A stretch of 64,000 bases of DNA, from assembly GCA_019638845.1 (NCBI GenBank), contig JAHBSZ010000003.1, forward strand, positions 1-64,000, written 5' to 3'. The notes under the pieces were generated by a model, which was not told where the DNA came from, made no database searches, and was given only the letters and a program-made list of their open reading frames with translations. Positions 42,561 to 63,989 of the stretch are shown here, one piece after another; position 1 is the first letter of the stretch; each line of letters begins with the position of its first letter. The position numbers and the translations under genes are program-made. The DNA is from Salinibacterium sp. (GTDB lineage: Bacteria; Actinomycetota; Actinomycetes; Actinomycetales; Microbacteriaceae).

Positions 42561-43706
42561 ATGAGCGCGACAACAGATATCAAGAAGGTTCTTATTGTGG
42601 GGGCCGGACTTGCCGGCCTCAGCGCAGCAATCTCGCTCGCGAAGCTCGGCAAGGAGGTGACAGTCATTGAGCAGAGCGACCATCTCGCCTATGGTGCGTC
42701 GATCACGATCGTCAACCGAGGACCGGACGCGCTGCAGGAGCTCGGAGTCCTCGATGAGGTGGTAGAGCAGGGGTTTGCGGGGTGGAATAAGTCGTTGTAC
42801 GACGACATTTTCGATGACGCCGGCAGTCGGCGTCCCATCTCGCCGATGCCGATCCGCGAGGACGACGGGTTGCCGAGCTACATCCTCATCTACCGGCCAT
42901 ATCTCGCCGACATTCTGAGTCGAAAGGCGACGGAACTAGGCGCAACCATTCGTCTTGGTGTCGCGGTGACCTCCGTCGTCGAGCATGGGGACGGTGTGAC
43001 CGTGACTCTATCCGCAGACGAGACGGTCGAGGCAGACCTCGTCATTGGTGCCGATGGCTGGCGCTCCGCCCTACGTGAGCAGGTTTTTCCCGGTCGCATC
43101 ACCTCGACGTACTCGGGGAACATGTCGATGAGGTGGGTGAAGCGGAACCCGCCGCCGGGTGCGGATGGGTTCTACATCACCGACCAGAGCGGCGTCGTCG
43201 TTATCCACAATCTCGGGTCTGACATGGTCTACATCGCGACAGGAACCGACATGGAGAACCGGCACATCGAGCAGGACGAGGCCGTCGAGCTTTTCCGCGA
43301 GGTGCTCGGACGATTCTCGGCTCCCTACGTTCGCGCGCTGCGTGACACCATCACCGACGACGACGAGATCGTCGTGCGACCCTACGTTTACCACAATATG
43401 CCAGCGCCGTGGCACTTGGGTCGCATCCTCGTTATCGGTGATGCGGCTCACACCATGAGCGCGCACATCGCCTCGGGCGGCGTCATGGCCCTTGAGGACG
43501 GGATCGTGCTTGGACAGGAACTCGCAATCGAGGAGGACCTCGGCACTGCCTTGCTTCGATTCGCGCGGCGACGGGCACAGCGCACTTTCGTCGCAGTGGA
43601 TGCCTGTCGGCAGATGCTAGACCTCCAGGTCAATTACCAAGCTCACCCGCGCGACGTCGGGCGTGTGCGCGAGCACGCCTTCCGCGAACTGCTGACGGCG
43701 TACTGA
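42561..43706 (+). CDS. FAD-dependent aromatic hydroxylase (salicylate hydroxylase/HpxO-like)
   Basis: A 381-aa class A flavoprotein monooxygenase. The FAD-binding GAGLAG is at 14-19, the DG motif (GADGWRS) at 163-169 and the second FAD motif GDAAHT at 293-298. It would insert one oxygen into an aromatic ring using NAD(P)H. Size and spacing resemble salicylate, 6-hydroxynicotinate or urate-type hydroxylases; the substrate is unknown. AGAGAGGAA precedes the ATG. It heads an operon with a FAH-family hydrolase (12-bp gap) and an extradiol dioxygenase. A decayed paralogue of its C-terminal half lies at 45745-46345. Confidence 0.88.
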   Translation: MSATTDIKKVLIVGAGLAGLSAAISLAKLGKEVTVIEQSDHLAYGASITIVNRGPDALQELGVLDEVVEQGFAGWNKSLYDDIFDDAGSRRPISPMPIREDDGLPSYILIYRPYLADILSRKATELGATIRLGVAVTSVVEHGDGVTVTLSADETVEADLVIGADGWRSALREQVFPGRITSTYSGNMSMRWVKRNPPPGADGFYITDQSGVVVIHNLGSDMVYIATGTDMENRHIEQDEAVELFREVLGRFSAPYVRALRDTITDDDEIVVRPYVYHNMPAPWHLGRILVIGDAAHTMSAHIASGGVMALEDGIVLGQELAIEEDLGTALLRFARRRAQRTFVAVDACRQMLDLQVNYQAHPRDVGRVREHAFRELLTAY

Positions 43707-43718
43707 AAGGGACGAAGA

Positions 43719-44762
43719 ATGACCGACATCGACCAGATCACGGGTCTTGCCGAGGGCACGTTTGGCATCGCGCGATTGTCCGACGAGATGCGCCCGATCA
43801 CGGCGATTGTGCGGCCCGGCGGCGACATCGTCGACATCTCCGCAGAATACCCGAACGCGAACGCGATCTACGAGAACTGGCCCACGAGCTTCGATCAGCT
43901 CGAGCGCGTCGCTCGAGACGCCGCTTCGACCGGCAGGGCGCTGGGCGGCTATCGCATTCTCCCGCCGGTCGAGAGGCCGCAGATCTTCTGCGCAGGTTCG
44001 AATTATCGGCAGCACGCCGCCGAGATGTACACCTTCAACGAAGGCAATTACCAGAAGGAGCGGAATGCAGGAGAAAGCGACGAGGAGTTCTTCGAGCGGA
44101 ACTTCGAGTTCGTCAATCAAAAGCGGGCGAAGGGGATGCCGTTCATCTGGCTCGCCAGCCACGGCTCGCTCGTCGGGCCGGATGACGACATCGAACTCCC
44201 GCAGATCGGCCACGCACACGATTGGGAGGCGGAACTCACCATAGTTCTAGCTGGCGGCGCAGGGCGTTACCTGAGTCCCGACGAGGCGGGCGAGTTCATC
44301 GCTGGCTACACGATCGGCGACGACATGCACACCGGCGACTTGTTCAGCCGCAGCGACGTCAAGTGGAACGCAGACTGGATCGCGAAACAGCAGCCGACGT
44401 TCAAACAGGTGGGGCCGTTCGTCGTACCGAAGCAGTTCTTCCCGGACCGCACAGGCATGCGGATCGAACTCGACGTCGCAGGCGAACAAATGCAGAACTG
44501 GCCAGCCGACGATATGATCTTCACCCCCGAGGACTACCTCGCCTACGCATCTGAGCGGCTGCCGCTGCTTGCTGGCGACCTCATGATGATGGGCTCCCCA
44601 CCCGGCAATGGCGCGGTGCACGGCGGACGCTGGCTTGTGCCCGGCGACACCGTCGACATCCGAATCACCGGTCTCGGTTTCCAGCACCACCGAGTGGTCG
44701 CGGAGGACTCTGCTGGTCGCACTCCCTACTGGGGCATGCCGCCCCTCGACACCGATTCCTAG
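43719..44762 (+). CDS. Fumarylacetoacetate hydrolase family C-C hydrolase
   Basis: A 347-aa FAH-superfamily protein. The conserved metal-binding acids are Glu170 and Glu172 (HDWEAELTIVL) and Asp201/202 (GYTIGDDMHTGD). The family opening (IFCAGSNYRQHAAEM) and the closing DLMMMGSPPGNG segment are present. These enzymes split acylpyruvates or decarboxylate/hydrolyse ring-cleavage products. Placed between a hydroxylase and an extradiol dioxygenase gene, it probably acts after ring cleavage. A 20-residue charged insert (about 108-130) is unusual. Confidence 0.88.
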   Translation: MTDIDQITGLAEGTFGIARLSDEMRPITAIVRPGGDIVDISAEYPNANAIYENWPTSFDQLERVARDAASTGRALGGYRILPPVERPQIFCAGSNYRQHAAEMYTFNEGNYQKERNAGESDEEFFERNFEFVNQKRAKGMPFIWLASHGSLVGPDDDIELPQIGHAHDWEAELTIVLAGGAGRYLSPDEAGEFIAGYTIGDDMHTGDLFSRSDVKWNADWIAKQQPTFKQVGPFVVPKQFFPDRTGMRIELDVAGEQMQNWPADDMIFTPEDYLAYASERLPLLAGDLMMMGSPPGNGAVHGGRWLVPGDTVDIRITGLGFQHHRVVAEDSAGRTPYWGMPPLDTDS

Positions 44763-44779: not shown

Positions 44780-45709
44780 ATGCCACGTATTGAACACCCT
44801 ATCGTCGACACCAATGAAACGATCCCGTGGAAGGGCCCACTCGCAGGCACCGATCACACCACAATTCGCGTTCCCGCACTCGAGACGGCACTGCCGTGGT
44901 ACCAGCAGTTGCTCGGACTTGTAGTCAAGGAGCGGGCAGCTGGCCGTGCATTCCTCGCGAGTCCCGTGACCGGCAAGGTAGTGCTATCGCTGTCCGAAAC
45001 CGGTCGCGGCCTCGAGTACGTGAGCTTTCGCGCGCGGACCCCAGAGGTATTCGAGACGCTGGGCAGTCGCCTTGATGCAGCAGGGATCCGTGCCGAGCAC
45101 CGGCTCGGCACTACGCGCCCTGGTGCGGTCGATGCGCTCCGCGTGCAGATGCCGACCGGACACGCGCTCGAGATAGTGCTCGCACCGGATGATGCACCGG
45201 CAGCGCCTGTCGAAGGTGAGTATCGGCTCGGCTCTCTCGATGTCCGTACGAGCCACCTTCAGCTGCGAACCACAGACGTGAAGGCGCTCACTGATTTTCT
45301 TGCAGTGGTGGGCTTTCGTAGCAGCACGTTTGTCCCGTTGCCGGCCGGTGATGGCTACTTCATTCAGTTCGTCCGGGCGAACGAATTCCACCATCAGGTC
45401 GCAATCCTCACCGGGAAAGAAGGTGTGCACCACGTCGCGCTCGAGGTCGATGAGGTCGCGTTCTGGTCGCTTCTGGATCACCTTACGGTTCTGAAGCTGC
45501 CGGCCGAGTACGGTCCGGTGCGACATCACGAGGGCAACATGCTCTCCTTTTACATTCGTGACCCGTTCGGCAACCGACTCGAGCTAACAAGTTCCATGGA
45601 GATAGTCGGATTCGACTACCCACCATCAATCGCTGGTCATCAGCCTTGGTACCACATGAACATGTGGGGCCCCCAGCCACCCGAGACTTGGGAAACGGAA
45701 TGGATGTGA
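44780..45709 (+). CDS. VOC-family extradiol ring-cleavage dioxygenase
   Basis: A 309-aa type I extradiol dioxygenase made of two VOC modules. The C-terminal, catalytic module has the 2-His-1-Glu iron site: His159 (RTSHLQL), His218 (GVHHVALEV) and Glu268 (NRLELTSSM). It would open a catecholic or hydroquinone-type ring next to the hydroxyl group (meta cleavage). AGGAGACC precedes the ATG. It forms an operon with the preceding hydroxylase and FAH genes. Confidence 0.88.
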   Translation: MPRIEHPIVDTNETIPWKGPLAGTDHTTIRVPALETALPWYQQLLGLVVKERAAGRAFLASPVTGKVVLSLSETGRGLEYVSFRARTPEVFETLGSRLDAAGIRAEHRLGTTRPGAVDALRVQMPTGHALEIVLAPDDAPAAPVEGEYRLGSLDVRTSHLQLRTTDVKALTDFLAVVGFRSSTFVPLPAGDGYFIQFVRANEFHHQVAILTGKEGVHHVALEVDEVAFWSLLDHLTVLKLPAEYGPVRHHEGNMLSFYIRDPFGNRLELTSSMEIVGFDYPPSIAGHQPWYHMNMWGPQPPETWETEWM

Positions 45710-45744: not shown

Positions 45745-46345
45745 TGCGAGGTGCCTCCGTACCGCAATTGAACTCGTCCACCAAGTGAGCCTGGTTGTCG
45801 GGGAGAAGGTCGTCTCGCGCTATAGCGGAAACATGAGTCTGCATTGGGTGAAGGAAAACCCACCGGCGGGTCAGGTGGGACTCTACATCCGATGAGGAGA
45901 GTGGCCCTGTGGTCGTTCACTTTCCCCGGGATGGTTTGGGGTACATCGCGACAGGTGTTGTCATGAAGAACCGCGACGTGCCGAGGCCGAGGCTGTAGAA
46001 CCGTTCCGGGGCGTATTCTCGCGCTTCGCAGCACCTTTCATCGAATAACTCCTGGCTTTCGTTGACGATGGCGTAATCGCTCGAACCTACTTGCTGCAAA
46101 ATCTCCCCGCGCCGTGGCAGATTGGCAGAATTGTCCTGTTGGGTGACGCCGCACACACGATGCCCGCTCATCTGGCCTCCGGTGGGGTGAAGGCACTCGA
46201 GGACGCGGCTGTACTGTACGAAGAGCTCGCGATAAGGGACTCCCTCGAAACAGCGCTCACGCCTTACGGGCAGTGCGCGCCCGTCGAACGTTGATGGCAG
46301 TCGACGCATGCCGCCAGATGCTGGAGCTGCAGGTCATCTATCAGG
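45745..46345 (+). pseudogene. Decayed flavin hydroxylase (C-terminal half)
   Basis: Stop codons and frame changes break a sequence that matches residues from about 175 on of the hydroxylase at 42561. Matching pieces are SRYSGNMSLHWVKENPPAG versus TYSGNMSMRWVKRNPPPG, GYIATGVVMKNR versus VYIATGTDMENR, LLGDAAHTMPAHLASGGV versus VIGDAAHTMSAHIASGGV, and VDACRQMLELQV versus VDACRQMLDLQV. No N-terminal FAD motif is present. Confidence 0.88.
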
Positions 46346-46504
46346 CCATCCTGCAGACCTCGCACGCATCCGTAGGCGGCGCTCGGCGAGCTCGCGGAGC
46401 CATCTTGAGTAGAACTCCCGATCCCGGCGCGAATACATCTCGCATGTGAGGATACGCTCCAAACGACCGTGCGATGCTTTGCGGATCGTGCGGAAATGAG
46501 TCCC

Positions 46505-47503
46505 TTAGTGCAGGCTAAGGATGTCCTCGAGAGTCGCCGGTGTCGCCTCGAGCAGCGGTTCGTGGAGCGCTTCGCCGGGGAACTCGCTCGCCTCGAAGAA
46601 CCATCGCCGCGTTGCAGGCAGGCCCCAGAGCTGGGCGCGCTTCGCGTTTGAGAGGTCCCAGCGCATCGGCTCGTCCTCGAGATCGATGAACTGGTAGTGC
46701 GTGGTGAACAGCTCGATCCGGTGCTGGTCTGGGTCACGGAGGTAGAGGAATAGCGCGTTTGAGATGCCGTGTCGACCCGGTCCGCGGTCGATCTCATCGC
46801 CGAAGCCGAGGTCGCCCGCCACGTCGGCGGCGTGCAGCAGCGAGATGCCGTCCGGAACCGTGTACGCGAAGTGGTGAAGCCGCGGGCCGTGCCCGTTCGT
46901 GAACACAAGGTCGTGCGTGTTGCCCTTGACCTCCATCCAAGAGCCCCAGAGTTCGTCGGTTCCGTCCGTTGCCGTGTACTCAGCGAGGCGCATGCCGAGG
47001 CCGCTCCAGAAATCTGTCGCGGCCTGCACATCGTAGGTGACGACTTGGTAGTGGTCGAGACGCTGCGGTGCGCCGGCGACGAAGTCGGCGAAATCCTGAT
47101 GCCGCCGGGTGACGAGGCTCATTGAGGAGGTGAGTTCCATGTGAGTGCCGACCGGGTCGACGAACCGGATGGTCGGGCCCTGGTGGTCGAGTTCAACGCG
47201 TTCGTAGCAGATGCCCGCCGACTGGAAATACCGCTCTGCCTTGGCGACATCCTCGTCGGTGCGAACTCGGAGCCCGATCTGCAGAGCCTTGGGTTCAGCG
47301 CCGCGCTCGAGCACAAGGCTATGGTGTGCGGCCTCTTCCCAGCCGCGGAAGTACACCGCGTTGTCGGTCTCCTCAGTGACGACGAGGCCGATGACGTCGC
47401 GGTAGAAGTCGCGGGACTTCTCAAGGTCGGTGACCTGCATCCGGACATGGCTGGCGCGGGTCATGGCGAATGGGGGCTCGGGATTGGTGACGGGGATGGT
47501 CAT
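46505..47503 (-). CDS. Extradiol dioxygenase, HpaD (homoprotocatechuate 2,3-dioxygenase)-like
   Basis: A 332-aa two-module VOC dioxygenase. The iron ligands are His151 (RLDHYQVV), His211 (RLHHFAYTV) and Glu264 (HRIELFTTHY). Their spacing is nearly the same as His155/His214/Glu267 of the Brevibacterium fuscum homoprotocatechuate 2,3-dioxygenase, and the C-terminal tail (about 270-332) also suggests that group. It would cleave a catechol bearing an acidic side chain or ring carboxylate. The ATG overlaps the stop of the 650-aa hydroxylase gene (ATGA), so the two act in sequence. Confidence 0.87.
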   Translation of the reverse strand: MTIPVTNPEPPFAMTRASHVRMQVTDLEKSRDFYRDVIGLVVTEETDNAVYFRGWEEAAHHSLVLERGAEPKALQIGLRVRTDEDVAKAERYFQSAGICYERVELDHQGPTIRFVDPVGTHMELTSSMSLVTRRHQDFADFVAGAPQRLDHYQVVTYDVQAATDFWSGLGMRLAEYTATDGTDELWGSWMEVKGNTHDLVFTNGHGPRLHHFAYTVPDGISLLHAADVAGDLGFGDEIDRGPGRHGISNALFLYLRDPDQHRIELFTTHYQFIDLEDEPMRWDLSNAKRAQLWGLPATRRWFFEASEFPGEALHEPLLEATPATLEDILSLH

Positions 47504-49452
47504 AGTGAGGTCCTTTGCGCAATGGTGGGGATGGTTTCGCGCTCGATGCGCGGCGCCGGTGGGGGAGTGAGCATGTGGCCTTCGAAGAAGGCGGTGAGCG
47601 TCACTCGCGCATCAAGCGGCAGGACGGCAGCGACGTACTGGTCGGGCCGCACGACGACGATGGCGCCGTCGTGACTGATCTCACGGTCGCGGAAGATGTC
47701 GTATCCGTGTCCGGCAGCGAAGATCCGGTTGATATCGATGAGCCCGTATGGACCTTTCGCCGGCTTGAACGCGTCCGGAACGTCTCCGGGCTCGACTTGT
47801 GTGTAGTCCTGTTGGTAGATGACCTTCGTGTCGAGGATCGCGTCCTCGTCCCCGCCGGCGGGGGTGAACCGCACCCGGGGTGACGCAGGGTCGTTCGCCC
47901 ACCACACCGCGAACTCCGCGGTGGGCGTGCCACTGAGCGCCGGTGCCGACGCATCGGCGAACACGTAGACACGCCAACGACCGTCGGCCTCGTGGAGGTG
48001 GCCGAGATGGTGCCACCGATTGTCAGCACGACGGATCACCTCGGTGGACTTGAATCGTTTGCCGACCGGGAATCCGGGGGCGAGGTCTTGGTGCTCGATA
48101 CCGAGCGTGATCAGCGATGGCTCATACTGCGTCATGAACCCCGCCGGGAACTCGAGCGTCGAGGTGTACCACCGCTCGAGCCCCGCGGGATCGTCCCAGG
48201 AGTCGACCGGGCGGGCGAGCAGCCCCGACCACTCCTTGTCAAAGTCGATGAGGTTCTGGGCGACGACCTTGCGTTCGCTGGCGTAGGTCGACAGCAGCGA
48301 CTCTGGCGCGCGGCGCTCCAGAACGGAGGCGAGCTTCCAGGCGAGGTTGAAGCCGTCCTGGATGGAGACATTCATCCCTTGGCCGGCCTTCGCCGAGTGG
48401 GTGTGGCAGGCGTCACCCATGATGAAGGCGTGCGGCGTGCGGATGCCGGCGAACTCGGCGGGAACGTCGTCGAAGCCGTCGGTGATCCGGTGCGCAACCT
48501 CGTAGACCGACCACCAGGTCACCGCTCGCACGTCCAAGGAGTACGGGTGGATGATGCGGTTCGCTTTCGCAATGATCGCGCCGATCGGGGTCGCCTTGAC
48601 TGCCCCGCCGTCGGACTCTCCCACCTCGCCGAGGTCGACGTAGACGCGGACGAGGTACCCGCCCTCGCGGGGGATCGTGAGGATGTTCCCCGCATCGTGT
48701 GACTGGATCGAGCACTTCACCTGGATGTCAGGGAAGTCGGTGTTGTTCAGGATATCCATCACGCCCCAGGCGTGCATGGAGGCCTCACCGTGCAGGCGGT
48801 GCCCGAGCGCCGTGCGGACCCGGCTGCGTGCCCCGTCACCACCGACCAGGTACTTCGCGCGAATGGTGCGGGTCTCGCCCTCACGCTCACCGGCGACGTA
48901 GCGAACCTGCGCAGAGACCGGGTACTCGGCGTCGGGGTCGATGGTGCAGTCCAGGAACTCGATCCCGTAGTCGGGGACGATGCGGCCGGGCGCGCGGGCA
49001 GCATCCCGCAAGAAGTAGTCGAGGATGCGTGACTGGTTGACGTAGATATGCGGGAACTCGCTCATCCCCGTGGCGTCGTCGGGTGCCCGAGAGGCGCGCA
49101 CGATCCTGCTCGGGTCAGCGGGATCCGGCTTCCAGAAGCACATCTCGACATTGCGGTAGGCCTCATCGACGACCTCGGTGGCGAATCCGAACGCCTGGAA
49201 GGTCTCCACCGAGCGCGCCTGGATGCCATCCGCTTGGCCGACCTCCAATCGCCCGGTGCGCTGTTCGATAACCCTGGCGTTGATGGAGGGGAATCTGGAG
49301 AGCTGGGCGGCGACGACCACCGCAGCCGGCCCGGTGCCGACCACGAGCACGTCCATCTCGTCGGGGAGATCCGTCGACCGATCGACGCCGAATCCGGCGG
49401 CCGGCTTAATCCGGGGATCATTCGCCTCGTACCCGCGAAGGTGAATCTCCAT
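47500..49452 (-). CDS. FAD-dependent phenol/3-hydroxybenzoate hydroxylase (MobA/PheA-like)
   Basis: A 650-aa flavoprotein hydroxylase. The FAD-binding GTGPAA is at 39-44, the VEQRTGRLEVGQADGI block follows, and a second FAD motif MGDACHTHSAKAGQGMN lies mid-protein. A C-terminal thioredoxin-like domain begins near 440. The extra C-terminal domain and length are typical of phenol 2-monooxygenase and 3-hydroxybenzoate 4-monooxygenase (MobA). AGGAGAG lies before the ATG at 49452; the frame upstream to 49650 is noncoding promoter sequence. It is the first gene of a two-gene operon with the HpaD-like dioxygenase and diverges from an IclR regulator. Confidence 0.88.
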   Translation of the reverse strand: MEIHLRGYEANDPRIKPAAGFGVDRSTDLPDEMDVLVVGTGPAAVVVAAQLSRFPSINARVIEQRTGRLEVGQADGIQARSVETFQAFGFATEVVDEAYRNVEMCFWKPDPADPSRIVRASRAPDDATGMSEFPHIYVNQSRILDYFLRDAARAPGRIVPDYGIEFLDCTIDPDAEYPVSAQVRYVAGEREGETRTIRAKYLVGGDGARSRVRTALGHRLHGEASMHAWGVMDILNNTDFPDIQVKCSIQSHDAGNILTIPREGGYLVRVYVDLGEVGESDGGAVKATPIGAIIAKANRIIHPYSLDVRAVTWWSVYEVAHRITDGFDDVPAEFAGIRTPHAFIMGDACHTHSAKAGQGMNVSIQDGFNLAWKLASVLERRAPESLLSTYASERKVVAQNLIDFDKEWSGLLARPVDSWDDPAGLERWYTSTLEFPAGFMTQYEPSLITLGIEHQDLAPGFPVGKRFKSTEVIRRADNRWHHLGHLHEADGRWRVYVFADASAPALSGTPTAEFAVWWANDPASPRVRFTPAGGDEDAILDTKVIYQQDYTQVEPGDVPDAFKPAKGPYGLIDINRIFAAGHGYDIFRDREISHDGAIVVVRPDQYVAAVLPLDARVTLTAFFEGHMLTPPPAPRIERETIPTIAQRTSL

Positions 49453-53239: not shown

Positions 53240-53240
53240 T

Positions 53241-55863: not shown

Positions 55864-57240
55864 ATGACCATTGCGACTGTGAATCCAACGACTGGCAAGA
55901 CCGAGATGATTATCGATCCTCATAATGCCAACGAGGTAGAGCAACGGATCGCCGACACTGCCAAGGCTGCACGGATTCTCCGCAGCACGACCTTCGCGCA
56001 GCGCGCGGAGTGGATGAATGCTGCCGCAGCGATCCTCGATGACCAGGCCGAAGGTTTGGGTGAACTCATCACTATTGAGATGGGTAAGCCGATTGCGCAG
56101 TCCGTCGCCGAAGTGCAGAAATCGGCGAAGGCTATGCGTTTCTACGCCGCCAATGCGGAGCAGTTTCTCGCCGACGTCCAGCTCGACGATCCTTCGACAG
56201 TGGAGGCGTCGAAGGCCTGGACCCGTTACGAGCCGCTCGGCGTCGTCCTCGCGATTATGCCGTGGAACTACCCGCTCTGGCAGGTCATCCGATTCGCAGC
56301 CCCGGCGCTGATGGCCGGGAACGCAGGCCTCCTCAAGCACGCTTCGAACGTTCCGCAATCCGCGCTCTTTCTCGACACCCTCTTCGAGCGGGGCGGGTTC
56401 CCGAAAGGCTCGTTCCGTGCACTGCTCATCGGGGGCGCCGAGGTTGCGACGGTCATTGCGGACCCGCGGGTCAAGGCGGTCACGTTGACCGGTTCCGAGC
56501 CGGCCGGCCGGTCGGTCGCGGCTGTGGCGGGCGACTACATCAAGAAAGCCGTACTCGAGCTCGGCGGTTCGGATCCGTTCATCGTCCTGCCCAGTGCAGA
56601 CGTGAAGGCGGCTGCCGCGATCGCAGTTCGTGCGCGGATCAGCAACAACGGCCAGTCGTGTATCGCCGGAAAACGCTTCATCGTGCACACCGACGTCTAT
56701 GACGAGTTTGCGCAGGAGTTCGCCGGCCGAATGGCCGCACTCAAGGTCGGCGACCCGCTGCTCCGCGAGACGGAGGTAGGTCCGGTCGCGACCGAGTCCG
56801 GCCGGAACGACCTTATCGACCTCGTCGAGGACGCCCGGACGAAGGGTGCGACGATCCTCACGGGGGGCTCGATTCCTGACACTCCCGGCTGGTTCTACGC
56901 GCCGACCGTCATCGCCGACCTGCCTGAGGACGCGCGCCTCATCCAGGAAGAGGCGTTCGGCCCCGTCGCATCGCTCTACCGCGCGAACGACAACGAAGAC
57001 GCACTCCGCATCGCGAATCAGACCACCTTCGGTCTCTCGAGCGCGGTCTGGACAAACGATCTTGATGAAGAGGCGTGGTTCCTTGCGAACCTGGACTGCG
57101 GCGCCGTCTTCATCAATGGCATGACCGTCTCCTATCAGGAGCTGCCATTCGGCGGCATCAAACGCTCCGGCTTCGGACGAGAACTCGCGGCGGTCGGGCA
57201 ACGTGAGTTCTGCAACCTCAAGACGGTTTGGAAGGCTTAG
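55864..57240 (+). CDS. NAD(P)-dependent aldehyde dehydrogenase (succinate-semialdehyde type)
   Basis: A 458-aa aldehyde dehydrogenase. The active site is complete: Asn135 (PWNYPLW), Glu232 (LELGGSDPF) and Cys266 (NNGQSCIAGKR). The PWNYP and NNGQSCIA variants resemble the GabD/SSADH-like class I subgroup. It probably oxidises a semialdehyde released by the aldolase step. The ATG at 55864 has GAGGAGAGAGAAGAG upstream. Followed 36 bp later by the LysR regulator. Confidence 0.9.
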   Translation: MTIATVNPTTGKTEMIIDPHNANEVEQRIADTAKAARILRSTTFAQRAEWMNAAAAILDDQAEGLGELITIEMGKPIAQSVAEVQKSAKAMRFYAANAEQFLADVQLDDPSTVEASKAWTRYEPLGVVLAIMPWNYPLWQVIRFAAPALMAGNAGLLKHASNVPQSALFLDTLFERGGFPKGSFRALLIGGAEVATVIADPRVKAVTLTGSEPAGRSVAAVAGDYIKKAVLELGGSDPFIVLPSADVKAAAAIAVRARISNNGQSCIAGKRFIVHTDVYDEFAQEFAGRMAALKVGDPLLRETEVGPVATESGRNDLIDLVEDARTKGATILTGGSIPDTPGWFYAPTVIADLPEDARLIQEEAFGPVASLYRANDNEDALRIANQTTFGLSSAVWTNDLDEEAWFLANLDCGAVFINGMTVSYQELPFGGIKRSGFGRELAAVGQREFCNLKTVWKA

Positions 57241-57276: not shown

Positions 57277-58185
57277 ATGGCAGCGATCGACTACAACTTG
57301 TTGCGACCGCTCCGTGCGCTTCTCGAGGAACGGAGCGTCACCCGGGCAGCGGAGCGGATGCACGTCTCGCAACCCTCGATGTCGCTCGCGCTCGCTAGGC
57401 TCCGTACGCACTACGAGGATCCGCTGCTGGCCCGACATGGGAACCACTACGAGCTCACACCCCTCGGTGAGCGCCTGCTAGAGGCATTGCCCCAAGCGAT
57501 CATCGAGGTGGAGCAGGTGCTCGGATTGCAACCCAGGTTTGACCCGGTGACGAGCACCCGAACGTTTTCGATCGCCGGCGTCGATTACGCGATTGCCCGG
57601 ATCGCGCCGGCGCTGAGCCGGATCGTGGAGCGTGAGGCACCGAACGTTCGCTTCGAGTTCCCGGCGGCGGACGGTCGACTGGTGAACGGCGCGCCGGACT
57701 CGCTTCGCACGATCGACGGCGCGATTCTCCCGCACGGGTATCTCGTAGATCAGCTACACCTCGATTTCGAGCCGGAGGCGTGGGTCTGCATTGTTGACGC
57801 CGTCTCAGGCGTCGGAGAGCGGGCATCGGCGGACGAACTCCTCACCAGGCCCTGGGTGCAGACACTTCCGGCGCGTGACGGTATTACGCCAGCGCGTCAG
57901 CAGCTGCAGTTCCGCGGTATCGACATCTCCGTGGTTGCAGCGACCCCCAATTTCTTCGTGGTCCCGTCGCTCATCATCGGCACGGACCGGGTTGCGATTG
58001 TCCCTGAGGGCTTTGCCCGCATGGCGGTCCGTACAGAGCCGCGCCTCCGCCTTGTCCTCCTGCCGCTTGATCTCGATCCCATTCGAGACGCGTTCTGGTG
58101 GCACATCGATCGGAAACACGATGCGGGGCATATCTGGCTTCGGAGCATCCTCAAGCGGTTCGCGCGTAGCCATCTAAATTCTTGA
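57277..58185 (+). CDS. LysR-family regulator
   Basis: A 302-aa LysR regulator. The winged HTH covers about 4-63 (NLLRPLRALLEERSVTRAAE and HVSQPSMSLALARLRTHYED). A periplasmic-binding-protein-like effector domain follows from about 90. NodD/nahR-type N-termini start in the same DYNLL manner. It precedes the second hydroxylase operon in the same orientation, with a 115-bp gap that holds a palindromic site. It is the best candidate to bind the GATACG motif. Confidence 0.88.
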   Translation: MAAIDYNLLRPLRALLEERSVTRAAERMHVSQPSMSLALARLRTHYEDPLLARHGNHYELTPLGERLLEALPQAIIEVEQVLGLQPRFDPVTSTRTFSIAGVDYAIARIAPALSRIVEREAPNVRFEFPAADGRLVNGAPDSLRTIDGAILPHGYLVDQLHLDFEPEAWVCIVDAVSGVGERASADELLTRPWVQTLPARDGITPARQQLQFRGIDISVVAATPNFFVVPSLIIGTDRVAIVPEGFARMAVRTEPRLRLVLLPLDLDPIRDAFWWHIDRKHDAGHIWLRSILKRFARSHLNS

Positions 58186-58282: not shown

Positions 58283-58300
58283 GAACACGAAGGAGTGTTT

Positions 58301-59812
58301 GTGAAGACCGACGTCGATGTTGTGGTGATCGGAGGCGGGCCCGTCGGGACGACCGCGCTGGCATTGCTGGGCCGTGCGGGTCTCACCGCAGTCGGCTTCG
58401 AACGGGAAACGGCTATGTGGCCGACGGCTCGCGCCGTCCACTTCGATGGCGAGACAATGAGGACGCTGCAGAGCCTCGGCGTCGCGGCCCGTTTCCAAGA
58501 GGTCACGATCCCGATGAAGGACGTTGAGATAATCAACGAGACTGGCGACGTCCTCGTGCACGCATCCACCGATCGCATCGGTGACCAGGCGTGGAACGAC
58601 CACCTCAGCTTTCATCAGCCCGACATCGAACAGCTCATCTGTGAGGTGGTGGAGGGGACCCCGGAGGTCGATCTCCGTTACGGCGTTACGGTCACGAGGG
58701 TCACGAGCGTCGACGGTGGCATCGAGGTTACGTCGGTCGGCGACGATGGCAAAGAGCAGATCACTCGAGCGCGATGGGCTATCGCAGCCGATGGGGCTCG
58801 CTCCGAGATCCGCCGAGAGCTTGGCATCGAGACCGACAAATATGGCGAGGATGCGCAGTGGCTTGTCGTCGACGGACATCTCATCGATTCCCCTGGATAC
58901 GCCGCTGACATGATTCAGTTCGGCACCCACACCCGCCCCGCCCTTTGGCTCCGCCTTCCCGGCACTCGTGTTCGTATGGAGTTCATGCTCATGTCGGACG
59001 ACGATCCTGAAGAAATCGTGACCCCGGCCGCAGTCGAGCGGATCAGTCGCGGTGTATTGCCGGTCGGCAAGTTTAGTGCGGACCGGCAGGCGGTCTACAT
59101 CTTCCGAGGTCGCATCGCCCAGCACTGGCGAAAGGGAAATGTCTTTCTGGCCGGCGACGCCGCACATCAAGCGCCGCCACTTTTCGGTCAGGGTCTGTGC
59201 GCTGGCATCCGCGATGTCGAGAACCTGGTCTGGAAGCTTGACTTGGTCAGGCGCGGTCTTGCCGATGACGCACTCCTCGACACCTACGAGAGTGAACGAA
59301 AGCCCCATGCGACATTCTGGGTGGAGACGGCCGCTAATCAGGCAGTCGTCATCCAAACCATCGATCCGAAGGTCGCTGAGCACCGTGACGAGTTCATCAA
59401 GACCCACCCGGAGGCGAGTGCCGTGCCACTTGCTCCGGCCCTCGGAGCAGGACTCCACGAGGGCGCCAACGACCCGCGGGCGGGTCGTCTCGGAATTCAG
59501 CCCATTCTGGACGATGGCACTCGACTCGATGACATGGTCGGTAAGCACTTCCTGGTGGCGGCTGATCGCGCGCTTTACGATGCTCTGCCCCAGGGCTTGA
59601 AGGACGCCCTCGATGAGGACAGAGACACGGTAACGCTCCTCGACCCGGCGAAGGTGCAGCAGTTGCTCACTTCCGTTCAAGGGAATGCGGTCGTCTACCG
59701 TCCGGATCACTACATCCTCGGTGTCGGGGACACCGTCGCCGATCTCGAGCGCCTCGTGCGGGAGATTCCGTCCATCGCGCACATTGCGACAACTACCGTT
59801 TCAACCCGTTAG
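58301..59812 (+). CDS. FAD-dependent hydroxylase, MhpA-like
   Basis: A 503-aa flavoprotein monooxygenase. The FAD motif GGGPVG is at 11-16, a DG motif (AADGARSEIRREL) lies near 165 and the second FAD motif LAGDAAHQAPPLFGQGLCAG near 285. Size and the GDAAHQ.PP.FGQGLC.G.RD block match MhpA/3-(3-hydroxyphenyl)propionate-type hydroxylases. A GTG at 58295 would lie within the AAGGAG ribosome-binding site, so GTG 58301 is chosen. Heads an operon: hydroxylase, extradiol dioxygenase, FAH hydrolase, binding protein, OYE reductase. Confidence 0.88.
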   Translation: MKTDVDVVVIGGGPVGTTALALLGRAGLTAVGFERETAMWPTARAVHFDGETMRTLQSLGVAARFQEVTIPMKDVEIINETGDVLVHASTDRIGDQAWNDHLSFHQPDIEQLICEVVEGTPEVDLRYGVTVTRVTSVDGGIEVTSVGDDGKEQITRARWAIAADGARSEIRRELGIETDKYGEDAQWLVVDGHLIDSPGYAADMIQFGTHTRPALWLRLPGTRVRMEFMLMSDDDPEEIVTPAAVERISRGVLPVGKFSADRQAVYIFRGRIAQHWRKGNVFLAGDAAHQAPPLFGQGLCAGIRDVENLVWKLDLVRRGLADDALLDTYESERKPHATFWVETAANQAVVIQTIDPKVAEHRDEFIKTHPEASAVPLAPALGAGLHEGANDPRAGRLGIQPILDDGTRLDDMVGKHFLVAADRALYDALPQGLKDALDEDRDTVTLLDPAKVQQLLTSVQGNAVVYRPDHYILGVGDTVADLERLVREIPSIAHIATTTVSTR

Positions 59813-59821: not shown

Positions 59822-60760
59822 ATGGCATTCAGCCCGATCACGCACATCCGACACTTCGATATCGCGGTGCCCGACTTCGAGAAACAGATCGACTTCTACA
59901 AAAACCACTGGGGCCTCACTGTTATGGAGGACGACGGTGACGTCGTCTATTTCGCCGCAGAGGGCTCGCCGGAGCAGTACGTCACTCGCGTGCGTCGTTC
60001 GGCGGACAAGCGGCTCGACCTTGTGGCGTTCGGTGCCGCGGATCGCGCCTCCGTTGATCAGCTCGCACAGCAACTCGGTTCGTCCGGTGTCTCACTCGTG
60101 AAAGAGCCAGATGTCCTGCAGACTCTCGGCGGCGGGTACGGCTTCCGGTTTTTCGATCTTGAAGGTCGGACCGTCGAGGTTTCGACCGAGGTCGAGACCC
60201 GCAAGCACCGCAAGATCGAGGAACGCGAGTCTGTCCCGGTCCGACTCTCGCACGTCGTCCTCAACTCGCCGGAGCCGGAGAAGATGCGCGCCTGGTATGA
60301 GAAGCACCTCGGCTTCCGACTCTCCGACACACTGAATCACCCGCACACAGGTGATCTCTTCTACTTCATGCGGTGCAGCTCGCAGCATCACTCGATGGCA
60401 ATCGCGCGGGCCCCCCACGCATCCCTTCAGCACGCTTCCTTTGAGCTTCGCGGTATCGATGAGTACATGCGCGGCAGCGGGCGGATCATCCGCGCCGGCT
60501 TCAGGAAGATCTGGGGTCCCGGTCGCCATCGCGCTGGCGACAATACGTTCACATACTTTATCGACCCGAATGGGAACACGATGGAGTACACGACTGAGCT
60601 CGCTGAACTCGATGAGGATACTTGGCACCCGAGTATCTTCGACGTGCAGGAGCCGGAGACGTCCGATCAGTGGGGTACCGGCGGCGACATGGACGAGTTC
60701 ATTACTCGTGAGATGTTCAACGATCCCGACAAGGGTCTGTTCATCCCTCCGCCGGTCTAG
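59822..60760 (+). CDS. VOC-family extradiol dioxygenase
   Basis: A 312-aa two-module type I extradiol dioxygenase. Iron ligands are His144 (RLSHVVLNS), His204 (LQHASFEL) and Glu255 (NTMEYTTEL). It is divergent from the two other dioxygenases of the island (at 44780 and 46505), so the three are not recent copies. AGGAG lies before the ATG; 9 bp after the MhpA-like hydroxylase gene. It probably cleaves the ring hydroxylated by that enzyme. Confidence 0.88.
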   Translation: MAFSPITHIRHFDIAVPDFEKQIDFYKNHWGLTVMEDDGDVVYFAAEGSPEQYVTRVRRSADKRLDLVAFGAADRASVDQLAQQLGSSGVSLVKEPDVLQTLGGGYGFRFFDLEGRTVEVSTEVETRKHRKIEERESVPVRLSHVVLNSPEPEKMRAWYEKHLGFRLSDTLNHPHTGDLFYFMRCSSQHHSMAIARAPHASLQHASFELRGIDEYMRGSGRIIRAGFRKIWGPGRHRAGDNTFTYFIDPNGNTMEYTTELAELDEDTWHPSIFDVQEPETSDQWGTGGDMDEFITREMFNDPDKGLFIPPPV

Positions 60761-60783: not shown

Positions 60784-61806
60784 ATGACATTAGTGTTTGC
60801 AGTCGGTTCATTTGAGATCCGGGGAGACGCTTTTCCCGGGCTTGTGGTTGGAGACGATGTCTATGACCTCCGAGCGATCTTGCCGGGTGTTACCGCGACC
60901 TCGGATCTCTTTGACAGATGGGAGGAGAACCTCGACACGATTGCGACGCATGTCGGTGCTCCAACCAGTACACCGCATTCCCTGAGTGGCCTCCGGTCCT
61001 CAGGAGAACTGCGCGTTTTGCCGCCCGTGCAGCCCGTCGGCGTCTTCATTGCTGCCGGAGCCAACTACCGCGAGCACATCATCCAGATGAGCGTCGCGCA
61101 CGGTCTTGGCAGCGAGGGGGCATCGCCCGAGCAGCTCCGAATGGAAGCGACTGCGGAGATCGACGAACGCGCCCAGGTCGGTGACCCGTACGTCTGGACT
61201 GGTATTCCATCTGCGGCAACCGGTGCCTATGACGACATACAGCTTCCGGACTTCGGGACGGACATCGACTGGGAGGTCGAGCTCGGCGTCGTGATCGGTC
61301 GGACCGCATACCGTGTCGCAGCCACGGACGCCCTCAACTACGTCGCGGGGTACACCATCGTGAACGACCTCACCGCACGTTCGCTAGTACCGCGCGACGA
61401 CATGGCGAAGATCGGGACCGACTGGTTCCGGGCAAAGAACCAACCGACCTTCTTCCCGACTGGCCCCGTCGTCGTGCCGGCTCGGTTCGTTGCCGACGTT
61501 TCGAAGCTCCGGATTCAGTTGCGCCTCAACGGCGAGCTAATGCAGGATGCGGTCGCGGACGACCTTGTCTTCGACGTGCCGAATCTCATCGCGTATGCCT
61601 CGTCCGTCGCGATCCTTCGCCCCGGTGACATCCTCATCACGGGGTCGCCGGCCGGGAACGGCTCGCACTGGAAGCGTTTTCTCCGGGACGGCGACGTGAT
61701 GGAGGCGACGATAACCGGACTCGGCGTTCAGGAGACATCGGTCAGAGGCCCGAGCGGCGTGCTCCCACCGTGGCAGGCGAGCCGCGCAGCGAGAGTCGCC
61801 ACGTGA
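60784..61806 (+). CDS. Fumarylacetoacetate hydrolase family protein
   Basis: A 340-aa FAH-family hydrolase/isomerase. Metal ligands are Glu164 and Glu166 (IDWEVELGVVIG) and Asp195 (YTIVNDLTAR). The N-terminal domain (1-80) is also family-like. It contains the substrate loop GANYREHIIQM and the terminal GDILITGSPAGNG. It would act on the ring-cleavage product of the preceding dioxygenase. It shares little beyond motifs with the FAH gene at 43719. Overlaps the next gene as GTGA. Confidence 0.88.
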   Translation: MTLVFAVGSFEIRGDAFPGLVVGDDVYDLRAILPGVTATSDLFDRWEENLDTIATHVGAPTSTPHSLSGLRSSGELRVLPPVQPVGVFIAAGANYREHIIQMSVAHGLGSEGASPEQLRMEATAEIDERAQVGDPYVWTGIPSAATGAYDDIQLPDFGTDIDWEVELGVVIGRTAYRVAATDALNYVAGYTIVNDLTARSLVPRDDMAKIGTDWFRAKNQPTFFPTGPVVVPARFVADVSKLRIQLRLNGELMQDAVADDLVFDVPNLIAYASSVAILRPGDILITGSPAGNGSHWKRFLRDGDVMEATITGLGVQETSVRGPSGVLPPWQASRAARVAT

Positions 61807-62645
61807 CCCTTCGACAATCGTTCTTCGTCCCACCCGTGCCGTTCCTCGTTGCCGAAGAGCTTGGTCTTTTCGCAGAGGCCGGCGTGGAGGTCGAGTCGCG
61901 TCGCGCCCGCTCCAGCACAGAGCAGCTCGACGGACTCCACAGCGGCGAGATCGATCTTGCGATCACCGCGATGGACAACGTCTTCGTCTGGAACCAACGC
62001 GGTGTCGACCTGCGAGTTGTGGCACAGGTCGAGGCAACCACTCTGCTGACTGTGTATGCGCGACCCGGCACTCGCTCGCTCGACGATCTGAGCGGCGGAC
62101 GGTTCGCAGTCGACGCGATGACGAACGGTTTTGCGCTCATCGCGCGGCGGCTTCTCGAGGAGGCGGGGGTGTCAGCGTCGTTCGTCGAAGCCGGCGGAGT
62201 GAAGGAGCGCCTTGACGCCCTCATCGAAGGCACGGTGGATGGGACCCTGCTCGGCCCGCCGCTCGATGAACTCGCCGAGCGAGTAGGCATGGTAGCGCTC
62301 GCCTCGGCGAACGCGGCGTTCCCCGAGCTACCGGGACAAGGGGTCGTCGTGCGGGCCCAACGCCCGGCCGGCGAAAACGCAAAGATCACCGCTTACATTA
62401 GTGCGCTCGCAGCTGCTACGGAAATGGCGAACCACATGGCCGACGCGGACGGCGTTGCATTGCTCAAGGAGAACGGTTTCCCGGGCCGTTCAGCAGTGAA
62501 CGCCTGGCGGTCACGGCCGTCGGGAATCGCCGTCGATTCGGACGGTCTCGCACTCGTCGAGTCGATCCGGGCGGACTTCGGCCTGCTGCCGCCTGGATAC
62601 AAGGGCGCCGCGGACATCCTCGACGGATCGTTCGCGGGGCTCTAA
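61803..62645 (+). CDS. NMT1/SsuA-like substrate-binding protein without signal peptide
   Basis: A 280-aa periplasmic-binding-protein type II fold resembling SsuA/TauA/ThiY. The N-terminal LGLFAEAGVEVESRRA with the following LHSGEIDLAITAMDNVFVW is typical. No signal peptide or lipobox is visible from either possible start (GTG 61803 or GTG 61770), so the protein looks cytoplasmic. No ABC permease or ATPase gene is nearby. It could be a ligand sensor, an enzyme on this fold, or a binding protein that lost export. It overlaps the FAH stop as GTGA. Confidence 0.8.
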   Translation: MTLRQSFFVPPVPFLVAEELGLFAEAGVEVESRRARSSTEQLDGLHSGEIDLAITAMDNVFVWNQRGVDLRVVAQVEATTLLTVYARPGTRSLDDLSGGRFAVDAMTNGFALIARRLLEEAGVSASFVEAGGVKERLDALIEGTVDGTLLGPPLDELAERVGMVALASANAAFPELPGQGVVVRAQRPAGENAKITAYISALAAATEMANHMADADGVALLKENGFPGRSAVNAWRSRPSGIAVDSDGLALVESIRADFGLLPPGYKGAADILDGSFAGL

Positions 62646-62693
62646 GCAAGTGATAACACAAAGGGCCTCGGCCCCTGGACGTCAGGAGAACGC

Positions 62694-63989
62694 ATGGATG
62701 TGACATCGACGAAGCGAGCGAGCGAAGTGCTTGGGTCGCCACTCATGATCAACAAGCTGGTGGTGAAGAATCGGGTCATCCTCGGTCCGATGGCAGTTTT
62801 GCGCCCGACCGAGGACGGCCGCCCGAGTGAGCAGACCATCGCGTTCCTGCGCCGGCGCGCAAAGGGTGGGGTCGGACTGATCTTCGTCGGTGGTTCCGTT
62901 GCCACCGAGCGTGCATGGAACGAGTCACCGTTCTTCCCGAACATCCGATTCGACAAGGAGGGGTTCATAGGCGACCTCCGGCGTCTCGTCGACGCGGTGC
63001 ACGAGGACGGAGCGAGTATTTTTGCGCAGCTCTTCCCGAGTTTCGGGCGTATGGGCGTGCCGCGGAACGGTGAGCGGATCTCTGCGGCAAGTCCGAAGCC
63101 GGTAGTGATGGGTGCTGCCGGATTCCCCGACCACGTATACGTGCCCGGCGGCCGCGTGACGCCTCTACCGGATGAGGCAACTGTCGAGGACATCAAGGCG
63201 CTCGAAGCTGCGGTCGTGGCCTCGGCGCGTCGAGCGAGGGCAGCGGGTTTCGATGGCGTGGAGATCGCGGCTCATATGTGCTATTTCTATTCGTCCTTCC
63301 TCTCGCCGCTCGCGAACAAGCGTACCGACGAGTATGGCGGCAGCGCGGAGAATCGGGCGCGAGCATTGCGAGATGTGGTTGCCGCGGTCCGGACCGAGGT
63401 CGGTCCGGACTATCCGGTCGGGATCCGAATGAGTGTGAATGACCACATGCCCGAGGGTCAAGACGCCGTCGGATTCGCGGAGGTGGCCGGTCACATCGTG
63501 AGCGCGGGTGTCGACTTCGTCTCGCTCACTGAGGGGAACTATGAGTCTATGGCGCAGAACGTGCCGTCGCAGTCGGGCAACATGCTCGCCCACGGGGAAC
63601 CACAGGCTTTCCGAAGTGCGATTGGAGATGTGCCGCTGTTCCTCTCCAGTACCCCTGAACCGCAGCAGGCAGCAGACGCGATCACGGCAGGGCATGCCGA
63701 TGCGACGATGCTTGCGCGTCAGTTGCTCGCAGACCCGGACTATGCAAACAAAGTCTTCTCCGGTCGTGAAGGGGATATCGTCTGGTGCGACCACGCGAAC
63801 TCGTGCCTGCGCCGTCTGATGACAAACATCCCGGTGCAGTGCCACAAGAACCCCGAGATGGGCAGTGAGGACTCGAGCGCGAAGCGTTCGACGCTACTGC
63901 AAAACCTGTTCATCTGGGCGGCTGGCAACGCGTTCCTGATGGCGATCGCAGATGCCGCGGCGAAGGCCGCGCCGAAGGCGAAGCGCTGA
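62694..63989 (+). CDS. Old Yellow Enzyme-type FMN oxidoreductase
   Basis: A 431-aa NADH:flavin oxidoreductase with the OYE TIM barrel (about 15-360). It has the GFDGVEIAAH element and the SPLANKRTDEYGGSAENRAR signature. The usual catalytic H-x-x-H/N region reads AAHMCYFYSSF, so the active site differs from common OYEs. Cysteines in VWCDHANSC and VQCHKNP recall the 2,4-dienoyl-CoA reductase [4Fe-4S] motif but appear incomplete. No C-terminal FAD/NAD domain is fused; the end is an Ala/Lys tail. It may reduce an activated C=C or ring before hydroxylation. TCAGGAGA precedes the ATG. Confidence 0.85.
   Translation: MDVTSTKRASEVLGSPLMINKLVVKNRVILGPMAVLRPTEDGRPSEQTIAFLRRRAKGGVGLIFVGGSVATERAWNESPFFPNIRFDKEGFIGDLRRLVDAVHEDGASIFAQLFPSFGRMGVPRNGERISAASPKPVVMGAAGFPDHVYVPGGRVTPLPDEATVEDIKALEAAVVASARRARAAGFDGVEIAAHMCYFYSSFLSPLANKRTDEYGGSAENRARALRDVVAAVRTEVGPDYPVGIRMSVNDHMPEGQDAVGFAEVAGHIVSAGVDFVSLTEGNYESMAQNVPSQSGNMLAHGEPQAFRSAIGDVPLFLSSTPEPQQAADAITAGHADATMLARQLLADPDYANKVFSGREGDIVWCDHANSCLRRLMTNIPVQCHKNPEMGSEDSSAKRSTLLQNLFIWAAGNAFLMAIADAAAKAAPKAKR

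Follow-up and report, generated by a model that had tools for sequence, protein, structure and literature searches.

Opening of the A ring of flavonoid-type compounds is described for two gene clusters, the ifc cluster for isoflavones of Variovorax sp. V35 (PMC11069340) and the fde naringenin operon of Herbaspirillum (PMC11303751). The ifc intermediates given are 8-hydroxydaidzein, the ring-cleaved X2 (m/z 301.035) and the pyranone X3 (203.035), and the products of its cupin are C10H10O4 and C10H10O3 (PMC11069340). The main text of that paper assigns no gene to the conversion of X2 to X3, and its Results and Discussion name no enzyme acting on the cupin products; IfcA and FdeE, the flavin-dependent monooxygenases (FMOs), are given there as 36.3% identical and the dioxygenases IfcB and FdeC as 65.8% identical (PMC11069340). 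The DNA analysed here (hereafter the window) covers positions 1 to 64,000 of a contig of 530,834 bases (JAHBSZ010000003.1) of Salinibacterium sp. (2.96 Mb, 13 contigs), and positions above 64,000 continue the window numbering along the contig. Three sets of flavin hydroxylase and extradiol dioxygenase genes at the right end of the window form the left part of a catabolic island that spans about 48 kb (contig positions 42.5 to about 91 kb). The part of this island that deserves attention appears to be a pathway for an isoflavone-type A ring whose front-end enzymes have been replaced, together with candidate genes for published steps that lack an assignment.

Because of the gene content of relatives in Corynebacterium occultum and Rhodococcus koreensis, set 3 and the genes at 52-57 kb and 74-79 kb constitute one unit, hereafter the core, with sets 1 and 2 as attachments. 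The genes observed in this part of the island, designated below by their first positions, are listed with profile scores in bits and percentage identities.

52001..53239, plus strand: thiolase, proposed to cleave the β-ketoacyl-CoA (TIGR01930, 415.9, cut-off 240.55; 70% in C. occultum)
53193..53645, plus strand: 4HBT-type thioesterase (PF03061, 52.3; 44% in C. occultum)
53694..54713, minus strand: DapA-superfamily lyase/aldolase (PF00701, 30, cut-off 22.1)
54729..55742, minus strand: ornithine-cyclodeaminase/mu-crystallin-family protein (OCD; PF02423, 134.4)
55810..57240, plus strand: succinate-semialdehyde-dehydrogenase (SSADH)-like aldehyde dehydrogenase (ALDH; PRK09406, 712.4, just under the cut-off of 730; 74% in C. 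occultum)
57277..58185, plus strand: LysR regulator (PF00126)
58295..59812, plus strand: set 3 MhpA-like hydroxylase, 505 aa from a GTG start (PRK06183.1-3, 426.7, cut-off 390)
59822..60760, plus strand: set 3 extradiol dioxygenase of the VOC family, proposed A-ring cleavage enzyme (76% in C. occultum, 72% in R. koreensis)
60784..61806, plus strand: set 3 hydrolase of the fumarylacetoacetate hydrolase (FAH) family (PF01557, 202.7)
61770..62645, plus strand: NMT1/THI5-like protein (PF09084, 65.4)
62694..63989, plus strand: old-yellow-enzyme-family (OYE) flavoprotein (PF00724, 170.1; 57% in C. occultum)
64010: EthD-domain protein
64.8-69.7 kb: ABC importer genes
69467: AraC regulator
70755-72476, minus strand: vanillyl-alcohol-oxidase (VAO)-type oxidase of the 4-phenol-oxidase family
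72441-73319: short-chain dehydrogenase/reductase (SDR)
74811-75818: FAH-family hydrolase
75822-76430: cupin
76427-78412: acetoacetate-CoA ligase (700.2, cut-off 520.9)
78484-79062: TetR regulator

The one near-whole match to the core, which has database annotation only and is without sets 1 and 2, is plasmid pCOCCU of C. occultum (NZ_CP046456), with homologues of 15 island genes in 17.5 kb at 44-81% identity. These are the genes for the TetR regulator, thiolase, thioesterase, DapA-like protein (73%), OCD, ALDH, MhpA-like hydroxylase (56%), VOC 59822, FAH 74811, cupin, CoA ligase, SDR, VAO (the best conserved, 81%), AraC regulator and OYE. The pCOCCU cluster has no counterpart of LysR 57277, the one partial match (28%) lying at a distance from it, and sets 1 and 2 were not found on the plasmid in a comparison of three stretches covering the whole record. 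A rearranged version of the core in R. koreensis includes the MhpA-like hydroxylase (54%), VOC 59822 (72%), FAH 74811 (61%), FAH 60784 (56%), cupin (52%), CoA ligase (54%), TetR (57%), DapA-like protein (44%), OCD (45%) and NMT1 protein (38%).

The accessory genes of the core recur in ifc-type loci of strains other than V35. Homologues of FAH 74811 (46-49%), the cupin (42-43%), TetR (38-46%), the NMT1 protein (37-40%), the DapA-like protein (43-66%, the highest value being that of Variovorax OV700) and OCD (38-42%) were found in the loci of Variovorax OV700, Paraburkholderia hospita and Bradyrhizobium elkanii, and FAH 60784 has relatives of 41-42% identity in P. hospita and OV700. All five members of an accessory set defined from these three loci (FAH 74811, TetR, DapA-like, OCD and NMT1) are present in each of them; P. 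hospita represents a further ifc-type case in which NMT1, TetR, DapA-like, OCD, both FAHs, cupin, FMO and VOC occur together. The OV700 locus (L109) is read as ifc-like because its FMO and VOC are 36.5% and 64.1% identical to those of Herbaspirillum locus L099 and 36.1% and 65.7% identical to those of L103, values near the published ones for IfcA/FdeE and IfcB/FdeC; with Herbaspirillum L087 the values are 31.0% and 67.4%, and the FMO fit is less good. The gene order of loci L099 and L103 is transporter, hydrolase, VOC, Rieske, FMO, MFS, cyclase, cupin, FAH and epimerase, which would correspond to fdeA-J, given that the dioxygenase takes the letter C and the FMO the letter E; the remaining letters are inferred. 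No fde gene names were found in PMC4440368.

Relatives of an fdeC-like VOC were scanned, and the best 80 of 390 loci together with L025, L016 and L029 were sorted by their FMO (83 loci in stretches of up to about 35 kb, most of about 21 kb, counting matches that covered 60% or more of the query). Seventy-five loci were fde-type, three ifc-type and one other, and four had no FMO. The FMOs of L016 and L025, two near-identical Bradyrhizobium plasmids, are 99% identical, and therefore the three ifc-type loci amount to two independent cases. The NMT1 gene was present in all three ifc-type loci and in none of the 75 fde-type loci, TetR in two of three and none of 75, and FAH 74811 at 46-49% in two of three, against at most 29% in 18 of the 75 fde-type loci. 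Nine plasmid records, none of them from C. occultum, match the NMT1 protein at 1e-20, and in all nine a DapA-like gene lies at most about 13 kb away. The OCD gene adjoins the DapA-like gene, or is at most one gene away, in C. occultum, Variovorax, Bradyrhizobium and Roseomonas. The 25 plasmid records matching the DapA-like protein at 1e-20 belong to Roseomonas (8), Bradyrhizobium (7), Variovorax (3, legume root), Novosphingobium (3) and four others, and the cupin matched 97 plasmid records at 1e-12, mostly Rhizobium, Agrobacterium, Sinorhizobium, Rhodococcus and Bradyrhizobium among the 40 matches listed. Three Variovorax plasmids queried for an ifc-like VOC with a sphingomonad VOC, in a search without a positive control, yielded nothing.

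As far as the main text describes the V35 cluster, the island has in common with it the step types of flavin hydroxylase, VOC cleavage and cupin (PMC11069340), and with the ifc-type loci of other strains the FAH, cupin, TetR, NMT1, DapA-like and OCD genes. It differs from ifc in its MhpA-like core hydroxylase, an IfcA-like enzyme occurring only in set 1, and in the additional acetoacetate-CoA ligase and thiolase, VAO, SDR, OYE and hpa-like genes. The likeness to the Herbaspirillum operon, as far as that source describes it, consists of FMO-, VOC-, cupin- (38-39%), FAH- and LysR-like genes (PMC11303751). These were the only matches between the island and the fde-like locus compared (25-39%), the alpha/beta hydrolase, EthD, Rieske, MFS, cyclase, epimerase and transporter of that locus having no match at 1e-5 in the 100 kb compared, and a whole match to fde was ruled out by the missing hydrolase, Rieske and cyclase matches. 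The preliminary description of this DNA, made from the sequence of the window, had matched the genes to no described pathway; no characterised cluster in the collections searched does match the whole in order, but set 2 corresponds to the homoprotocatechuate type, and the genes around set 3 match ifc/fde clusters in the accessory genes. No actinobacterial gene cluster for the flavonoid A ring was found in the titles or abstract starts among the open PMC matches listed.

Gene context also appears to tie the subfamily of VOC 59822 to flavonoid-type rings, in several loci and not in all. Relatives of 65-66% identity in Streptomyces NBC_01237 and Nonomuraea lie near an FdeE-like FMO (35-39%), a LysR gene and an FAH gene 48-50% like 60784; LysR 57277 is 38% identical to the LysR proteins by these clusters and 30-32% to those of fde/ifc-type loci. 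Relatives of 36-38% in three sphingomonads share their loci with fde-like genes for a hydrolase, a cupin and an FAH, and on a Croceicoccus marinus plasmid (L024:11989-16521 with flanks) two beta subunits of C-glycoside deglycosidase (CGD; PF19906) enclose the VOC, alpha/beta hydrolase, cupin and FAH genes, which suggests a locus for utilisation of flavonoid C-glycosides. C-glycoside deglycosylation was ruled out for the island genome, in which PF19906 has no match; the profile matched none of 14 controls and gave three matches on the Croceicoccus plasmid used as the positive control. Other contexts are a Rieske dioxygenase and CoA-transferase genes in Rhodococcus USK13 (62%) and adjoining polyketide-synthase genes in Streptomyces angustmyceticus (59%). 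In Rhodococcus qingshengii J1-2 (L020:13983-16067), a 694-aa frame joins a VOC (49% to 59822) to an acetoacetate-CoA ligase; it is a probable deletion chimera rather than evidence of a functional fusion, because the alignment to the ligase starts only at residue 200.

The sets attached to the core, and the hpa-like genes to its right, are as follows.

42561..43706, plus strand: set 1 flavin hydroxylase, 381 aa, of the same family as the FdeE/IfcA-type FMOs
43719..44762, plus strand: set 1 FAH-family hydrolase (PF01557, 149.9; 35% to 60784)
44780..45709, plus strand: set 1 extradiol dioxygenase (VOC), metal-triad residues present
45806..46372, plus strand: decayed fragment of another set-1-like hydroxylase, corresponding to its C-terminal half (43% identity to 42561 across 192 residues, E 5e-41)
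46505..47503, minus strand: set 2 HpaD-type 3,4-dihydroxyphenylacetate 2,3-dioxygenase (TIGR02295, 330.1, cut-off 321.4)
47500..49452, minus strand: set 2 phenol-hydroxylase-type flavoprotein, 650 aa (PRK08294, 917.5, cut-off 560)
49560..50267, plus strand: IclR-type regulator divergent to set 2 (PF09339, 50.9, cut-off 22)
79225-80343, minus strand: HpaD (TIGR02295, 437.1, cut-off 321.4)
80348-81874: HpaE-like ALDH
81887: GntR regulator
82567-84042: HpaG-like fusion of FAH and RraA (PRK12764, 765.5, cut-off 444; HpaG C-terminal profile, 131.7, cut-off 276.4)
84100-84906: HpaI-like
84891-85673: HpaH-like
85709-86554: IclR regulator
86483-88447: phenol-hydroxylase type
89661-90818 (L010:9662-10819): NAD-dependent formate dehydrogenase (648.1, cut-off 329)

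Set 2 is homoprotocatechuate-type, and with the hpa-like genes it represents the ordinary part of the island. Its hydroxylase 47500 is 61% identical to 86483 (the 650 aa are those of an internal-ATG form, the open frame of 716 aa running to 49650), and its HpaD is 38% identical to the paralogue at 79-88 kb. The island resembles the homoprotocatechuate (hpa/hpc) meta pathway in having HpaD twice over the cut-off, with candidates for HpaE, HpaG, HpaH and HpaI at 80.3-85.7 kb, and differs from it in that a phenol-hydroxylase-type flavoprotein replaces HpaBC and the FAH is fused to an RraA-like domain. HpaBC was ruled out as the 4-hydroxyphenylacetate hydroxylase, the HpaB_N profile (PF11794) having no match in the genome while matching 6 of 14 control genomes, and the candidates for 4-hydroxyphenylacetate are thus the two phenol-hydroxylase-type enzymes, 47500 and 86483. 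In C. occultum, the presence of benzoylformate decarboxylase and alpha-hydroxy-acid oxidase genes elsewhere on pCOCCU suggests a different exit for the B ring. Such a mandelate-type exit is not supported for the island, the sole match to that decarboxylase at 1e-10 being 28% identical.

Taken as a whole, the island is best explained as a route for an isoflavone-like polyphenol, A ring first and B ring through homoprotocatechuate, an explanation held with slightly better than even confidence. Within it, cleavage of a flavonoid-type A ring by the core is quite likely from the gene context, while for an isoflavone in particular as the substrate the balance is even, and passage of the B ring through homoprotocatechuate may be given about the same chance as its opposite. 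What the analysis shows is the genes, the families to which they belong and the neighbourhoods that recur; we infer the substrate, the order of the steps and every catalytic assignment in what follows. Flavin hydroxylase 58295, perhaps also 42561, would add a hydroxyl group ortho to the phenol of a resorcinol-type A ring, and VOC 59822 would cleave the ring. An FAH hydrolase (74811 or 60784) would split the product into a C4 oxo-acid and a pyranone/β-keto acid, from which cupin 75822 would remove C1 as formate to leave 4-(4-hydroxyphenyl)-3-oxobutanoate. Activation of this β-keto acid by 76427 and cleavage by thiolase 52001 would give 4-hydroxyphenylacetyl-CoA and acetyl-CoA, and thioesterase 53193 would release 4-hydroxyphenylacetate, which 47500 and 86483 would convert to homoprotocatechuate for cleavage by HpaD (46505, 79225), the HpaE/G/H/I-like genes at 80-86 kb finishing the product. 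The DapA-like, OCD and ALDH genes may handle the C4 fragment, and formate dehydrogenase 89661 may take the formate. Pyruvate-type lyase chemistry of the DapA-like protein on the C4 fragment is plausible because its Lys180, which does not vary among six homologues, aligns with a lysine of dihydrodipicolinate synthase that we take to form the Schiff base. His119, His123 and His162 of the cupin are among the invariant residues of six aligned cupins.

The published values balance as X2 + H2O = X3 + C4H4O4, and as X3 + 2 H2O = C10H10O4 + formic acid or, alternatively, X3 to C10H10O3 + CO2 by hydrolysis. C10H10O4 fits the β-keto acid 4-(4-hydroxyphenyl)-3-oxobutanoate, a structure assigned here. CoA ligase with thiolase and 3-keto-5-aminohexanoate cleavage (BKACE) are presumably two unrelated routes of β-keto acid cleavage, both of which we would expect to give 4-hydroxyphenylacetyl-CoA from this compound. 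In B. elkanii USDA 76 (L025:25417-27924), a gene for a '3-keto-5-aminohexanoate cleavage protein' adjoins the ifc-type cupin and FAH genes, with a PaaI thioesterase gene nearby, and is a candidate for the β-keto acid step there. The comparison of clusters thus offers the shared FAH hydrolase as a candidate for X2 to X3, and the CoA ligase/thiolase or a 3-keto-5-aminohexanoate-cleavage-type enzyme as candidates past the cupin. The full claim is put forward tentatively, its chances being somewhat under even: an actinobacterium-type island would mineralise isoflavones completely by an undescribed route, with an MhpA-type hydroxylase and a new dioxygenase subfamily replacing IfcA/IfcB, the 74811-type FAH as the missing X2-to-X3 enzyme, a CoA ligase/thiolase exit (BKACE-type in rhizobia) and a dedicated homoprotocatechuate branch for the B ring. 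If true, A-ring catabolism of isoflavones, for which the main text of PMC11069340 names Proteobacteria, would extend past that group on probably mobile DNA, with consequences for rhizosphere ecology and for regioselective flavonoid-hydroxylating enzymes.

Several observations weigh against the isoflavone route. Hydroxylase 58295 is MhpA-like and not an orthologue of IfcA/FdeE, its best match in the three ifc-type loci being of 45 bits or absent, and VOC 59822 belongs to a distinct subfamily, 26-29% identical to ifc-type VOCs and 26-32% to the fde/ifc-type dioxygenases of Burkholderiales, Bradyrhizobium and Roseomonas. The comparison with ifc rests on the OV700, P. hospita and B. elkanii loci and not on V35, that with fde on Herbaspirillum strains other than H. 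seropedicae SmR1, and the second cupin of OV700 is 44% like the first, as against 65% given for V35 (PMC11069340, main text). The accessory genes are not exclusive to ifc, since 45 of the 75 fde-type loci have the cupin, nine OCD, eight the DapA-like gene (62-65%) and two FAH 60784. The pCOCCU cluster is without FAH 60784 and NMT1; HpaD-like genes are limited to a 22% match on that plasmid and to matches of 25-28% in the 130 kb examined of R. koreensis. In the island itself, HpaE (638.3, cut-off 638.35) and HpaH (336.6, cut-off 351.5) are slightly under the NCBI cut-offs and HpaI (287.2, cut-off 368.8) clearly under. VAO, SDR and OYE occur in the recurrent neighbourhoods and have no place in the proposed scheme. 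The terms fumarylacetoacetate, dihydrodipicolinate, Actinobact, Microbacterium, 4-hydroxyphenylacet and formate are absent from the main text of the ifc paper (PMC11069340).

Ligase 76427, moreover, may simply use acetoacetate; it scores as a true acetoacetate-CoA ligase. This score favours a reading in which the substrate of the core is a different resorcinol-type ring (orcinol, alkylresorcinol, stilbenoid, xanthone or similar), cleaved to pyruvate and a β-keto acid such as acetoacetate, the order being extradiol cleavage, FAH hydrolysis and completion of the β-keto acid by CoA ligase and thiolase; a trioxo-acid would need FAH, ligase and thiolase. Plain orcinol-type routes, however, need neither a cupin nor a B-ring exit, and the cupin, DapA-like, OCD, NMT1, TetR and FAH set is common to ifc-type loci. 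This reading is considered improbable.

It is also conceivable, if rather doubtful, that the island unites by gene transfer three separate pathways for three unrelated aromatics with no shared flux. The core occurs in C. occultum without sets 1 and 2, none of the loci compared joins it to a set-1-like or set-2-like set, and the island has separate regulators (LysR, IclR, TetR and AraC). On the other hand, breakdown of the predicted B-ring product would require genes such as those of set 2 and the hpa-like group, and a DapA-like relative lies within 3 kb of the relative of the set 1 hydroxylase in 7 of 10 plasmid records. These records match 42561 at 1e-35, the best being Polymorphobacter (42.5%) and the other nine Bradyrhizobium, and none covers 80% of the query. 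Hydroxylase 42561 is 28-35% identical to the FMOs of fde/ifc-type clusters (32-35% to the ifc-type). The closest of the aligned sequences to VOC 44780 (31%) is from the MhpA-VOC-FAH-cupin locus of Rhodococcus USK13, and a search at 1e-45 of 397 other genomes sampled from the family gave no match to it. Set 1 may serve another substrate than sets 3 and 2. For the latter, the isoflavone route takes up one of the two options of the preliminary description, cleavage of successive rings of one substrate, which appears to be the better of the two.

The VAO-type oxidase 70755 bears on a last alternative, a lignin-type 4-alkylphenol pathway in which this oxidase and the SDR, both outside the window, would act first and set 3 would cleave the catechol that they produce. 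The enzyme belongs to the 4-phenol-oxidase family (E 3e-131 to a solved relative, 2e-117 to eugenol oxidase, 4e-99 to VAO and 5e-95 to p-cresol methylhydroxylase (PCMH)), and it is the best conserved of the island genes in C. occultum (81%). On a Roseomonas mucosa plasmid (L120:10886-28641), OCD/SSADH/DapA-like genes adjoin a fde-type FMO, VOC and hydrolase, and the locus includes a VAO/PCMH-type flavoprotein (34% relative) with cytochrome c and SDR genes, a thiolase and an AMP-binding enzyme. The VAO relative with its cytochrome c and SDR genes would suit an alkylphenol, but the same cluster holds the fde-type FMO, VOC and hydrolase, and no VAO match was found in the loci examined of R. koreensis (130 kb), Variovorax OV700, P. 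hospita and B. elkanii, so the VAO looks peripheral and the 4-alkylphenol pathway is very unlikely. Some forms of the pathway may nonetheless include a benzylic oxidation, because the VAO is the gene best conserved in C. occultum and its Roseomonas relative lies by a DapA-like cassette and an fde-type FMO/VOC/hydrolase group.

Three flavin hydroxylases, each beside a distinct VOC extradiol dioxygenase, with FAH-family hydrolases in two of the sets (43719-44762 and 60784-61806), had been noted in the preliminary description, and all the genes that it named, including thiolase 52001, thioesterase 53193, DapA-like 53694, ALDH 55810 and OYE 62694, were found in place. The funnel that it called complete is not confined to the window, since it continues at 70-90 kb with a further FAH, the cupin, the acetoacetate-CoA ligase, the VAO-type oxidase and the hpa-like genes. 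The view of the sets as assembled rather than duplicated is borne out among the three sets and has to be qualified for the set 2 paralogue at 79-88 kb and the decayed set-1-like hydroxylase. The dioxygenases of the three sets are 23-25% identical in pairs; the hydroxylases of sets 1 and 3 gave no BLASTP match at 1e-3, those of sets 1 and 2 one of 30 bits in one direction only, and those of sets 2 and 3 matches of 54-62 bits. FAH 43719 and 60784 are related (35%, 166-168 bits). The metal-triad positions (two His, one Glu) and two further His are invariant in 16 aligned dioxygenases, and DG and GD motifs occur in all three hydroxylases, with a strict GxGxxG in two (absent in 47500). The decayed fragment 45806-46372 sits between sets 1 and 2 and appears to be a former extra copy or a relic of an earlier arrangement.

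Acquisition of the island by transfer is likely from the rarity of its genes, and not from GC content. A sample of 395 other genomes of the phylum contained no match to the DapA-like gene at 1e-60, and for the set 3 VOC a single weak match (28%) at 1e-30 was obtained in 59 other genomes among relatives. The GC content of the island (42,561-90,818) is 0.628, as against 0.687 in the adjoining 18.8-42.2 kb; that of 1-18.7 kb is 0.634, and the island is therefore not distinct in GC from that side. The high-GC stretch, 18767-42200, extends between a tRNA-Pro gene (18767-18841) and an integrase C-terminal fragment (41302-41697), includes DprA-like (39131) and ArdC-domain (34163) genes, and is probably an integrative element adjoining the island, with housekeeping genes (CTP synthase, EngA, prephenate dehydrogenase) to its left. 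The tRNA-Pro was rejected as an attachment-site repeat, its last 16-40 bases having no second copy in 100 kb.

Among the minor features, the NMT1 protein, which has no role in the proposed scheme, has a start without an obvious signal peptide by eye and no solved relative at 0.001, and EthD protein 64010 had no match at 1e-6 in 11 comparison loci. A transposase/integrase-core (rve) open frame, about 30% identical to IS3-type transposases, lies inside the island at 73464-73940 (L009:13465-13941). An odd tRNA-like gene with a two-base anticodon, which may be a false call, was reported by ARAGORN at L010:15767-15851. Frames with two glyoxalase-domain matches number seven in the genome, and four of these lie at 44.8-80.3 kb of the island contig.

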